Origin: Synechococcus sp. JA-3-3Ab
GTDB lineage: Bacteria > Cyanobacteriota > Cyanobacteriia > Thermostichales > Thermostichaceae
DNA: 64,000 bases
Assembly (NCBI RefSeq): GCF_000013205.1
Contig: NC_007775.1
Span: 620,001-684,000, forward strand
Direction: 5' to 3'
Positions 51,834 through 56,173 of this stretch are shown one piece after another. Made by a program: the position numbers and the translations under genes. Each line of letters opens with the position of its first letter. Position 1 is the first letter of the stretch. The notes beneath the pieces were generated by a model. That model was not told the origin of the DNA and ran no database searches. It was given only the letters and a program-made list of their open reading frames with translations.

Positions 51834-52505
51834 ATGTTCTACTTGCCGGTCTCGCTGTTGCTGTTTTTGATGCTGGTGCTGCTGCTGCCTTTCCTCTGGC
51901 TGGGGCTGGCGGTGGATGTGGTGGCGTTGGCGGTGGGCAAGTTGGGGTTCTCGCGGGAGGGGGCGCTGTTGCTGCTGCTGGCTATCCTGGCGGGCAGCTC
52001 GGTCAATATTCCCCTGTATCGTGTGAAGTGCGAGGTAACGCTGGTGGAAGACCTGGCCAGCCTGTGGATACGGCAATTTTGGGGGATCCCGTTGGCCAAG
52101 ATCTCTCAGGAGACCGTGGTTGCTCTGAACGTGGGCGGGGGGCTGATCCCGGTGCTCTTGGCCCTGTATCAATTTGGCCGGGCCGATGGGCTGTTGATCC
52201 TGGCCGTAACGGCGCTGGTGACTGTGGTCAGCTACTATGCTTCCCACGTGGTGCCCGGAATCGGCATTCAGATGAATCCCTTGACCGCCCCGGCTACGGC
52301 AGCCTTGGCCGCCATGTTCTGGGCTGGAGATCAGGCGCCGGCGGTGGCCTTTGCTGGCGGGGTTTTGGGCACGGTGATCGGAGCGGATCTGCTGCACTTG
52401 CCGGAGGTGCTGCGGCGCAATTGCTCGGGCATTCTCAGCATTGGCGGGGCCGGGGTTTTCGATGGCATTGCTCTCTGTGGCCTGTTTGCCCTGTTGCTGA
52501 GCTAA
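51834..52505 (+). CDS. DUF1614-family membrane protein
   Basis: The 223-residue protein has about six hydrophobic segments and ends FDGIALCGLFALLLS. Features of the DUF1614 family are GSSVNIPLYRV, LNVGGGLIPVLLALYQF and GGVLGTVIGADLLHL. The function is unknown; its wide spread in cyanobacteria and archaea suggests a small-molecule or lipid role, which is a guess. It ends four bases inside the convergent caspase-like gene. Confidence 0.82.
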   Translation: MFYLPVSLLLFLMLVLLLPFLWLGLAVDVVALAVGKLGFSREGALLLLLAILAGSSVNIPLYRVKCEVTLVEDLASLWIRQFWGIPLAKISQETVVALNVGGGLIPVLLALYQFGRADGLLILAVTALVTVVSYYASHVVPGIGIQMNPLTAPATAALAAMFWAGDQAPAVAFAGGVLGTVIGADLLHLPEVLRRNCSGILSIGGAGVFDGIALCGLFALLLS

Positions 52506-54634
52506 ACCAGCAAATAGGTGAGGGAAAGGGTAACAGCCTGGCCGGGATCCAGCCAGCGCAAGTCGGGATCCCCTTCGGGGGCACGCTGGGTCAACTCCTC
52601 GAGGAGAATTTGCGTCCATTCCAGCGGCCCATTGAGCAACAGCGGCGAACGGGCTACCCCCAGCTTGCGGGCCATGGTTTTGAGGGCTTCCAAGCTGGCC
52701 GACAAGGGGCGAGTGCTGGCCACAAACAGCAGCTCGGTCAGCCCCTGGGCATGGCAGGTGAGCAGATCGGGATTGACGGCAGAGCGCGAATTGCCAGCCA
52801 TCTCAGGCAGAGGTGGCAAAGTCAGGCTGCTCTTGGCCTCCAGGCGCAGCGGCAGGGCAAAGTCCTCCTGGGGCATGGGGGCCAGCAGGTGCAGTTGCCC
52901 GCTGGAATCGACCATCAACAGGTACCCGAACAGATCCTGCTCGCCCTCGTTGCGCAGAGTGAGATAGAGGGGATCCCCGCGCATAAAGCGTGGCATGCCT
53001 GGCTCGCCAGGAGCAGCGGCCCCTTGGGCAAGCCGTGACCCCCGCAAGGGTTTGCCCTTGGTGGACAATTCCCCCACCACCGCCAGCGGCGAGATTGCCG
53101 CGTTGAGGGTAGCCCGCAGGCGCTTGGCCGCCAGCAGATGGGCCAGACGGGGCACCAGCCGCTGCACTGCCGTAGCGGCAGCTTCCCCAGCCGGCCCGCA
53201 GGAATTGAGCAGCAATTCTCGCCCCGGCCAAAAGAGGCTGTAGCTGTTGACTTCCAGGGGTTTGGGCAGAGCGTCCAATTGAAAGGCGGCGGCCATTTCG
53301 GGGGTGATGCGGCCCAGCAGGCAATCCACCTGGCGCTCGCGCGGGTTGGCCGTCTCCATCCAGCTGTAGCCGGCGATGGCGTTGGTCAGATCTACTTTTT
53401 CAACGCGGCCTAAGTTGTCTTCCAGACCCACCAAAAGCTTGAGGCTGCTGGAGAGGCTGCGCAACTGCTCCCGCACCAGCGTGCCCACGGGGGGAAATTG
53501 ACCTTCCCCGTTGGCCGGCTGCACCTGTGCCAACAGGCCGCTGCGAGAACGAATCAGCAGCGGCACCGGCGAGGCGGTGGAAGGCTCGGCAGCAATGGGA
53601 ACCAAAAGAGTACCTGGCTGCAAGCCGCAGAGTGCCGCCGGTGGGATCCCACCCAGCCACACCTGGGCCCGATTCCCCTTCACTTCCTGGATGGCGCCGC
53701 TGACTCCCACCTGAGGGGGGGTGAGGAAGTAGGGCGGGATGCGCCGAGCCGTTTCTTTGCCCTCCAGGATGGGGCGCTGACAAGCAAACAGGCCCAGCTC
53801 CCGCTGACCGGCCACTTGGTTGAAGGCTATCAGCAGGCGGGTGGCAGGTGTGGTCTCCCACAGGTACTGCGTCAACAGGTAGGTGAGTATCCCTGCATGA
53901 AATCCCGGCCAAGCGGCTTCTGCCGCCAAATCTTGGGGGGTGGTGGCGGCAATTAACAACCCCTTGGGCGGAGAGGGCCAAATCTGCTGCACTTCACCAG
54001 AAGGCAGGCGACCGGGAGCCACCGCCTCTGGGGAGGTAGAGGCTACTTCCTTGGGGACTTTCGGCGGGCGGGAGCGCAGTTGCAAGTTGCCCCGTACTGC
54101 GGGTGCAACATAGGTAAAGCCACAATCGAGTACGGTCGTGAGCTGGGCTGTGCCCAAGCTTTGCACAAGCTGGAAAAAGCGCTCCAGACCCATAGCCGCC
54201 GCTTCTTCAGGGCCAGCCAACAGCAGCGCCGGCTGCCAGCGCTCGGGCGAAGATCCCGCCCGCCATTGGCCGTAGCCGCTAAACTGCACCACTACCGTTT
54301 CAGCCGTCTGACTTGCACTTCCCAAGTGCTCGGCAAAGGCTGACTGGATCGCGCTTGAAGTGGCAGCTCCATCGGTGAGGATGAGAATGTCTGCCGGGTC
54401 AAAGCCAAAGCGATACCGCAGCAGCTCCCGCTGCAGCTCCACATCCGTGACACACCCCTGTAACGGGGATCCCTCGCCGGGGTAGCGGTTAATGCCTATC
54501 AAGAGAGCCAACTTGCGGGAGCTGGCCGCCAAAGCTTGCCCGTAGCGCTCAGCCTGACCCACCAACCAGCCGGGAGAGAGACCAAGGCCGGCAGCAACCA
54601 GGAGTAACTTTTGTAGAAAAGACCGCCTTTCCAT
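52502..54634 (-). CDS. Caspase-like (orthocaspase) protein lacking the catalytic dyad
   Basis: The 710-residue protein starts with a twin-arginine-like signal (RRSFLQKLLLVAAGLGL). Residues 40-280 fit a caspase fold of the prokaryotic orthocaspase type (KLALLIGINRYPGEGSPLQGCVTDVEL). The catalytic His of SGHG is Tyr121 (QFSGYGQ), and where D-x-C-H/F-S-G is expected the sequence is DCGFTY at 170-175, so the Cys position is Gly172. The rest, about 400 residues, is a C-terminal part of unknown kind ending in a DUF4384-like region (GDPLYLTLRNEGEQDLFGYLLMVDSSGQLHLLAP). Inactive members of this family are known in cyanobacteria. Role unknown; export by Tat is inferred. Confidence 0.75.
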   Translation of the reverse strand: MERRSFLQKLLLVAAGLGLSPGWLVGQAERYGQALAASSRKLALLIGINRYPGEGSPLQGCVTDVELQRELLRYRFGFDPADILILTDGAATSSAIQSAFAEHLGSASQTAETVVVQFSGYGQWRAGSSPERWQPALLLAGPEEAAAMGLERFFQLVQSLGTAQLTTVLDCGFTYVAPAVRGNLQLRSRPPKVPKEVASTSPEAVAPGRLPSGEVQQIWPSPPKGLLIAATTPQDLAAEAAWPGFHAGILTYLLTQYLWETTPATRLLIAFNQVAGQRELGLFACQRPILEGKETARRIPPYFLTPPQVGVSGAIQEVKGNRAQVWLGGIPPAALCGLQPGTLLVPIAAEPSTASPVPLLIRSRSGLLAQVQPANGEGQFPPVGTLVREQLRSLSSSLKLLVGLEDNLGRVEKVDLTNAIAGYSWMETANPRERQVDCLLGRITPEMAAAFQLDALPKPLEVNSYSLFWPGRELLLNSCGPAGEAAATAVQRLVPRLAHLLAAKRLRATLNAAISPLAVVGELSTKGKPLRGSRLAQGAAAPGEPGMPRFMRGDPLYLTLRNEGEQDLFGYLLMVDSSGQLHLLAPMPQEDFALPLRLEAKSSLTLPPLPEMAGNSRSAVNPDLLTCHAQGLTELLFVASTRPLSASLEALKTMARKLGVARSPLLLNGPLEWTQILLEELTQRAPEGDPDLRWLDPGQAVTLSLTYLLV

Positions 54635-54861: not shown

Positions 54862-55312
54862 TCAGCTAGAAACGGCAGGAGGCCCGCCCTTTTCCTCCTG
54901 TACACGGGGGATACGGGAGCGTGTCAATCAACAGCCGCGCAGCAAAACAGAGCGTTGGCGGTCGAACAGTTGGCGTTTTCTCAACTGAGGCAGTTTCTGC
55001 ACTCCAAGGCGGTGGGGCCGGGGTCAAGGTTGTGGTGGTGCCGCCTGCCGACAGTTTGCAAACCGGCCACCGATGTTTATGGCTTGGCCAGCAGGAAGGG
55101 AAGCGTTTTCGTTGTGTGAACCCGGCCTGGGGCTGGGAAGGGGAGGCAGATTTTAACGGTGCCAATGTGATTGCGGTTTTGGGGGCTGCTGTAAGCCGGC
55201 CTGCCCCCCGTACACGGGGGGTGTGGGGGGCCCTTGGTTGGCTTGCCAACTGCAGGGCTACCCAAAGCCTGCACTCTATGTGTCAGCATGAGTGCGGGCA
55301 ATTTACAAAATA
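54862..55312 (+). mobile_element. Decayed IS605-type element: left end joined to tnpB 3' part and right-end hairpin
   Basis: From 54862 the left-end sequence TCAGCTAGAAA recurs, then GTACACGGGGG. From 54915 codons match the intact TnpB (RERVNQQPRSKTERWRSNSW), continuing with several frameshifts to EADFNGANVIAVLGA near 55145-55190. At 55204-55221 comes CCCCCCGTACACGGGGGG, then a hairpin (55268-55298) like the right end at 21861-21891. The N-terminal two thirds of tnpB are missing. It lies in the space between two divergent genes. Confidence 0.75.
55204..55221. repeat. GC-palindrome variant, copy 3
   Basis: CCCCCCGTACACGGGGGG, one base different from the copies at 20844 and 51553, which breaks the central palindrome. 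Confidence 0.75.
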
Positions 55313-56173
55313 GGGCAAGTGAGCCCCCCGTTCCGGCCAATGGCAGCGGAGGAAAGGGATTACGATGAACCCAGCCAAAACTAGACAGCACAGGCTGTAG
55401 TAGAGGTGAAAGCTCCCGATGGGATCCACCTGTTCCACTACCCCTCCTCCCAGGGATCCCAGCGCTAGAGCCAGGATATTGTTCAAAGCATGGGCCAGGA
55501 TGGGTAAGCTCAAGGAGCGTGCTTTCAGGTAGAGCAGCCCCATCACCAGGCCAAACACCGTCAGCCCAAGTGGGTTAGGGTGCAGTAGGCCAAAGACCAC
55601 GGAAGAAGCCAGCAGGCCTCTGTCAAGCCCCCACTTGAGGCTCCAGCGGTGGAGCAAAATGCCGCGAAACAGCCATTCCTCCGTTATGGGGGCCACCACT
55701 GCAATCGAGAGCCAGCGCAACCCCTGGTACACCTGCGGCCAGGCTGTCTCCCCCTCCTCTTCCCCCAGGGAGTCCAGCATCGACTCCGCCAGCTCCGGGA
55801 AAGACAGCGACACCCAGTAGAGCATCAGCAAAGTGGTGCCCATGGAGAGCACAACCAAAGCCGGCACTACCCGCAGCAGGGATCCCCAGGGAATCACAGC
55901 TCGCCAGTTGCCCCACAGCCGCCTCATCTGCAAATGGGCTCGTCGCCCGCGCTGCCAGCTCCAGATACAAGTGAGCACAAACGTGACGCAATAGACAACG
56001 TAGGCCAGCACCGGATCGTCCGAGGGCAGAGGCAACAGCCTGGCCAAAGCGACAACCCCCAGACCCACCCCCCCGTTGATCGACAGGAAAGCCAGCAGCA
56101 GATAGCGGGCCTTCAGCGCTGAAAATCCGGCTGAACCCGGCTCGGCAGGCGGCAAGGCGGGGGATCTGGACAT
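55283..56173 (-). CDS. CPBP-family intramembrane metalloprotease (CAAX-type)
   Basis: The 296-residue membrane protein has the Abi/CPBP motifs: TEEWLFRGILLH (EExxxR), FGLLHPN and HALNN, on predicted helices; an N-terminal soluble stretch of 20 residues precedes them. In this family the enzyme may cleave prenylated or other membrane proteins; substrate unknown. The last residues (VNCPHSC) and the stop are encoded by the right-end hairpin of the neighbouring decayed insertion element, so the natural C-terminus has been replaced. Confidence 0.82.
   Translation of the reverse strand: MSRSPALPPAEPGSAGFSALKARYLLLAFLSINGGVGLGVVALARLLPLPSDDPVLAYVVYCVTFVLTCIWSWQRGRRAHLQMRRLWGNWRAVIPWGSLLRVVPALVVLSMGTTLLMLYWVSLSFPELAESMLDSLGEEEGETAWPQVYQGLRWLSIAVVAPITEEWLFRGILLHRWSLKWGLDRGLLASSVVFGLLHPNPLGLTVFGLVMGLLYLKARSLSLPILAHALNNILALALGSLGGGVVEQVDPIGSFHLYYSLCCLVLAGFIVIPFLRCHWPERGAHLPYFVNCPHSC

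Follow-up and report, generated by a model that had tools for sequence, protein, structure and literature searches.

A dyad-less orthocaspase with a Tat-like N-terminus in Synechococcus sp. JA-3-3Ab and its cyanobacterial relatives

Our analysis of a 64,000-nucleotide stretch of DNA from Synechococcus sp. JA-3-3Ab (contig NC_007775.1, positions 620,001 to 684,000; hereafter the window, with a GC content of 59.4%) indicates that the gene at 52502-54634 on the minus strand almost certainly encodes a pseudo-orthocaspase that belongs to the broad Tyr-Ser/Tyr-Gly family of cyanobacteria. The frame is open over 710 codons, as the original prediction had it, and full-length relatives exist; we refer to the 710-residue product as P0001. 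Taking the evidence as a whole, we think the best explanation is, on balance, that P0001 is exported and acts as a non-cleaving binder, in signalling or as a scaffold under stress. The protein is already known as a published member of its family and the combination of its features is not new. What we add is modest, and concerns the history of the N-terminus and a C-terminal block that is conserved mainly in the dyad-less group.

An ortholog 80% identical to P0001, in genome G177 of the same genus, is one that we take to be, very probably, WP_011432265.1 of strain JA-2-3B'a(2-13). WP_011432265.1 of Synechococcus JA-2-3B'a(2-13) is listed as a Tyr-Gly pseudo-orthocaspase by Klemencic et al. (2019; PMC6426788, Table 1), so that this sister strain has the same dyad replacement as P0001, and a 2021 survey (PMC8283722) places the strain among those with pseudo-variants only. 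Klemencic et al. also describe pseudo-orthocaspases in nearly all cyanobacteria, with light-regulated expression. Moreover, Jiang et al. (2010; PMC2853523, Tables 1 and 2) give one metacaspase for JA-3-3Ab itself, of the type cbMC alpha-other with H-Y and C-G. That entry, gene 637872245, has the same substitution pair as P0001 and is the sole caspase homologue listed for the genome, in which we likewise find one caspase-domain match; it is very probably this very gene.

Our comparisons draw on 101 loci. Four of them did not enter the alignment of 97 rows, which includes the window's own: L001, L095 and L096, whose genes are already represented by L005 and L006, and L087, which was weak. The counts then passed over the broken L081 and L085, the incompletely read L056, and L097-L101, which bear the dyad but are distant and lack RRx[FLW][LIV] at the corresponding position; this left 89 rows. 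Seventy of these are without an intact His-Cys dyad, including three that keep one of its residues (L054, Tyr-Cys; L070 and L076, His-Gly), and 19 have the dyad, three of them being short (L086, L088 and L093, 300-405 aa). Since the rows were chosen by similarity to P0001, N-terminus included, they are not representative of all orthocaspases.

The caspase-like domain that had been predicted is indeed kept: residues 40-260 (53855..54517, minus strand) match Pfam Peptidase_C14 (PF00656) with an E-value of 1.9e-9, scoring 38 bits where the cut-off is 21.4, and a profile match to metacaspase structures agrees with this, which gives P0001 the p20-type domain of the orthocaspase class. The predicted replacement of both catalytic residues also stands. 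Tyr121 (54272..54274) aligns with the His of FSGHG in the dyad-bearing relatives (19 rows, 18 of them in a second alignment), and Gly172 (54119..54121) aligns with the Cys of LDSC (LDSCHSG) in the same relatives in the 97-row alignment. A 25-row profile made from both kinds of sequence places the two motifs on SGHG and DSCHSG of the yeast metacaspase 4f6o, with an E-value of 1.9e-27; a profile built from dyad-less rows alone put the Cys motif in the wrong place on 4f6p. A pseudo-orthocaspase is a p20 protein with at least one dyad residue replaced, and in P0001 both are, so we do not file it as an active orthocaspase; His and Cys are both present in 19/19 of the dyad-bearing rows.

Could an intact His-Cys pair lie elsewhere in the domain? 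We tabulated all five His and seven Cys of P0001 as candidates and found no replacement pair among them across the 70 and 19 rows, which leaves the original observation standing. Cys61 is conserved in 62/70 dyad-less and 16/19 dyad-bearing rows and His103 in 64/70 and 17/19, and residues kept about equally where the dyad is present are not replacements for it. Judged from the residues, then, P0001 has probably lost proteolysis. Other replacements also occur at low frequency among the 97 rows: Phe-Ser three times, Cys-Ser and His-Gly twice each, and Leu-Gly, Tyr-Cys, Leu-Ser and Tyr-Arg once each (rows L007, L013, L083, L009, L012, L037, L054, L060, L070, L076 and L077), with one more Tyr-Arg in L111.

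The p20 domain resembles that of solved metacaspases from yeast (4f6o), Arabidopsis (6w8s and 8a53) and Candida (7qp0), with profile E-values down to 1.9e-27 and a weak model of the domain. These metacaspases have a p10 part and, unlike P0001, the dyad (engineered mutants of it being among the entries), and neither the Tat-like N-terminus nor the C-terminal part of P0001 aligned to them; residues from about 222 to 260 weakly resemble p10 elements of yeast Mca1 (the second domain of 4f6o, 9.0 bits). Structure prediction gave a mean pLDDT of 33.5 for the full protein, which was discarded, and a weak 46.7 for p20 alone. We used the p20 model for one fold search only, in which the best 21 rows were metacaspases, and with TM-scores by query length of 0.26-0.36 this counts as weak support.

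Four residues are invariant in 89/89 rows: Asp64, Ser119, Gly122 and Asp170. Klemencic et al. (PMC6426788) point out a conserved acidic pocket that is kept in their pseudo-orthocaspase models, and they give the pocket residues of TbMC2, which we used for the assignment of Asp64 (54443..54445, minus strand), by its spacing from Cys61, and of Asp170 (54125..54127, minus strand), two before the Cys position. Both are invariant in 70/70 and 19/19 rows and would belong to the pocket for basic residues, a pocket that we judge by sequence because the structure models are weak. That P0001 is a binder that does not cleave is, as a claim of its own, a possibility we hold at somewhat below even.

The N-terminus of P0001 (residues 1-36; 54527..54634, minus strand) has the features of Tat substrates, namely an Arg-Arg motif (RR-x-F-L-Q, within MERRSFLQ at residues 1-8), a hydrophobic stretch and an A-x-A sequence (A-L-A at residues 34-36, before a possible cleavage point). 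The original prediction had called a twin-arginine-like N-terminus unusual for the family. This turned out to be wrong: RRx[FLW][LIV] is present in 89/89 rows, in the 70 without an intact dyad as in the 19 with one, so that Arg3-Arg4 (54623..54628) is invariant in both, and Arg-Arg recurs in 7/7 additional rows outside the 89 (L106-L112, all dyad-less). A Tat-like N-terminus is, moreover, published, since PMC6426788 notes for the Tyr-Ser variants an N-terminal RR with A-x-A that resembles a Tat signal. Where that paper describes the N-terminal extension as the most striking difference between Tyr-Ser variants and presumably active ones, here the extension is common to dyad-bearing and dyad-less rows; in the full-text literature searched we found no report of a Tat-like N-terminus in dyad-bearing sisters, only PMC6426788 being matched. 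The Tat model TIGR01409 gives P0001 13.9 bits, below its cut-off of 16.7, and so we call the protein Tat-like rather than filing it as a Tat substrate; the same model matches 1/37 members of our alignment A2 at E-values up to 0.01, and the NCBIfam model caspase_w_EACC1 matches 18/37 members of A2 at the same threshold, but not P0001. The genome has two matches each to TatC- and TatA-type genes. From its sequence, we consider export of P0001 by Tat probable.

The C-terminal part (residues 261-710; 52505..53854, minus strand), with a dN/dS of 0.11-0.39 depending on part, pair and method, has no solved homologue in a profile search against solved structures, where the matches were weak and the best had an E-value of 0.025. 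To look for features of the dyad-less group we call a position specific if it is conserved in at least 65/70 dyad-less rows and agrees in at most 9/19 dyad-bearing rows. Twelve positions are specific in this sense (239, 411, 412, 414, 415, 417, 437, 465, 485, 504, 523 and 700), with mild changes at 239 (Glu/Asp) and 504 (Lys/Arg), and P0001 itself deviates at two of the twelve, having Val instead of Ile at 411 and Ala instead of Trp at 700. Five of them fall in residues 411-417 (I/V-E-x-V-D-x-T; 53384..53404, minus strand), a segment conserved mainly in the dyad-less group, where Glu412 and Asp415 are present in 70/70 rows. Position 412 is a gap in 13 of the 19 dyad-bearing rows, including the three short ones, and since part of the segment is gapped in most of these rows it may have been gained in one group or lost in the other. 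Further on, residues 553-642 (52709..52978, minus strand) weakly resemble DUF4384 (13.9 bits, the cut-off being 27), a model found in 28/37 members of alignment A3 at E-values up to 0.05, the best being 2.9e-9. CusF, GRDP_C, DUF1240 and DUF6193 were rejected as C-terminal domains, each being matched by just 1/37 members.

Purifying selection acts on all parts of the protein. The original prediction had proposed comparing silent with replacing changes, and in the six pairs formed by the P0001 gene and three close relatives the whole-gene dN/dS is 0.13-0.18 by NG86 and 0.195-0.237 by YN00, with no part of the protein above 0.40. Three full-length relatives of 74-82% identity carry the same Tyr-Gly pair, and these relatives together with the low whole-gene ratio exclude chance. 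The family is also widely kept. P0001 is matched in 81 of the 194 genomes of the phylum and in 77 of the 89 genomes of the window's class, and the 12 others all carry the family code f20, a family of small genomes that are presumably picocyanobacteria. We read stretches from all 77 matching genomes of the class and found a dyad-less copy in 76 of them, the exception being G121, whose match has an internal stop (L113, where only a weak fragment was read). Among 70 genomes that were typed, every family copy read is dyad-less in 53 and both kinds occur in 16, the remaining one (G097) having a dyad-bearing copy and a second copy later read as Tyr-Ser. Of the dyad-bearing copies in these 16 genomes, that of G066 (L085) is broken, and those of G008 and G172 and one of the two in G118 are short. 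What is counted here are relatives of P0001 rather than all orthocaspases, and the dyad-less copy is not universal, since some strains named in PMC8283722 have true orthocaspases and no others. Among plasmid records, a protein search gave ten with a match, all cyanobacterial and below 60% identity, five of which cover at least 80% of P0001.

These data bear on whether P0001 still does anything at all, and whether what it does might still be catalysis. If a former protease gene were decaying here, without function, the loss of the catalytic residues would be expected, as would relatives in pieces, and there are some of these elsewhere (L081 in G062 and L085 in G066, broken by in-frame stops or split, in genomes that both have an intact family copy). 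In this lineage, however, the dN/dS values refute decay, the frame is intact in the P0001 gene and its three close relatives, and a dyad-less copy persists in nearly every matching genome of the class, so that we give this account practically no weight. A second rival is a cryptic enzyme, in which another residue such as Cys171 or Tyr121 takes over from the lost dyad. All four rows of the lineage (P0001, L002, L003 and L006) have Cys171 next to the position of the former nucleophile, and Tyr121 is kept in 61 of the 70 dyad-less rows. Yet position 171 is Cys in 8/70 of these rows and Thr in 54, and related rows vary at both sites of the dyad, with Phe in three rows and Cys, Leu and His in two each at position 121, and Ser in 53, Gly in 15 and Cys and Arg in one each at position 172. 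In comparing the 70 rows with the 19 we also saw no His restricted to the dyad-less rows that could serve as a catalytic partner. We therefore regard a cryptic enzyme as very improbable.

A non-cleaving P0001 might, on the other hand, be exported without being released, held in the membrane by its own N-terminus and acting as a tethered scaffold on the outer or lumenal face. That TIGR01409 falls below its cut-off makes N-terminal cleavage uncertain, and residues 10-26 are mostly hydrophobic, both of which fit such an anchor. Against it, the A-L-A at residues 34-36 fits a site for signal peptidase, and according to PMC6426788 relatives have the A-x-A too. On this evidence we find a permanent anchor unlikely, if distinctly less so than a cryptic enzyme, and keep to an exported binder that does not cleave.

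The eight neighbouring genes, by Pfam a malic enzyme, a DUF1614 protein, an Rce1-like protein, a methyltransferase, a nucleotidyl transferase, an amine oxidase, CpeT and ClpP, indicate no single pathway. The PADLOC 'caspase' profile matches residues 43-172 of P0001 with an E-value of 5.2e-16; no defence family was found by Pfam among the eight neighbours examined, and we therefore claim no defence role. The neighbours are arranged in the same order in L096, L002 and L003. The DUF1614 membrane-protein gene (51834-52505, plus strand) converges with the P0001 gene, the two having four bases in common (52502-52505). For the upstream Rce1-like protease gene (55283-56173), the match extends over 287-291 residues in both L002 and L003 but is confined to residues 1-119 in L096 (G177, L096:13740-14096), a copy that may be broken or changed.

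How did the dyad-less group arise? In a tree of the 89 rows over 495 columns, with the dyad columns removed, a single branch parts dyad-bearing from dyad-less rows (SH-aLRT 100). A tree of p20 alone, with 97 rows, likewise puts its 73 dyad-less rows in one group (SH-aLRT 100). It was rooted on five dyad-bearing rows without the RR motif. Its rows exclude L081, L085 and L113, which are broken, as well as L073, L076, L077, L108 and L111, which have long branches or are closely related to rows that do; L073, L076 and L077 were in the 495-column tree. The 19 RR-bearing rows with the dyad are not a single clade on the p20-only tree, an arrangement that its starred branches do not force, and both trees are quick ones without bootstraps, long branches being flagged. 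Since the RR motif is common to both groups it probably predates the loss of catalysis, and since, in addition, the outgroup bears the dyad, the simplest account is one loss of the dyad in a motif-bearing ancestor. Against a single origin counts the finding, in the much larger sets of PMC6426788 and PMC8283722, that variants other than Tyr-Ser and Tyr-Asn are scattered over the tree. The original prediction had suggested a selected, non-proteolytic role: purifying selection, the presence in 76 of 77 genomes and the one dyad-less group on two trees all support its being selected, while its being non-proteolytic is read from the residues.

What might such a protein do? Tat would carry P0001, already folded, to the periplasm or the thylakoid lumen, where the dead p20 domain could still grip Arg- or Lys-bearing segments of a partner without cutting them. 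The C-terminal part, with its conserved block, would then relay the binding as a scaffold or sensor in oxidative or light stress. Binding and signalling by P0001 are suggested here by the family literature. In Synechocystis sp. PCC 6803 the orthocaspase SyOC (sll0148) is, like P0001, a Tyr-Gly protein and the only orthocaspase of a unicellular cyanobacterium; it differs in having a deletion phenotype, in another species, its deletion raising tolerance of H2O2, and it is down-regulated under H2O2 (Lema et al. 2021; PMC7889975).

More generally, and still tentatively, we propose a joint reading in which the N-terminus was Tat-like before catalysis was lost. An orthocaspase that was already exported would have lost its dyad once in cyanobacteria, and its descendant, with what would be a C-terminal site of its own (residues 411-417, Asp437, Tyr465 and Lys504), would have become nearly universal outside f20 and would now work, in the periplasm or lumen, as a receptor-like binder, with active exported sisters persisting in some genomes. 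If the N-terminus does predate the dead active site, it does not mark the pseudoenzyme, and the 16 genomes with both copies would permit a direct comparison of the two roles.
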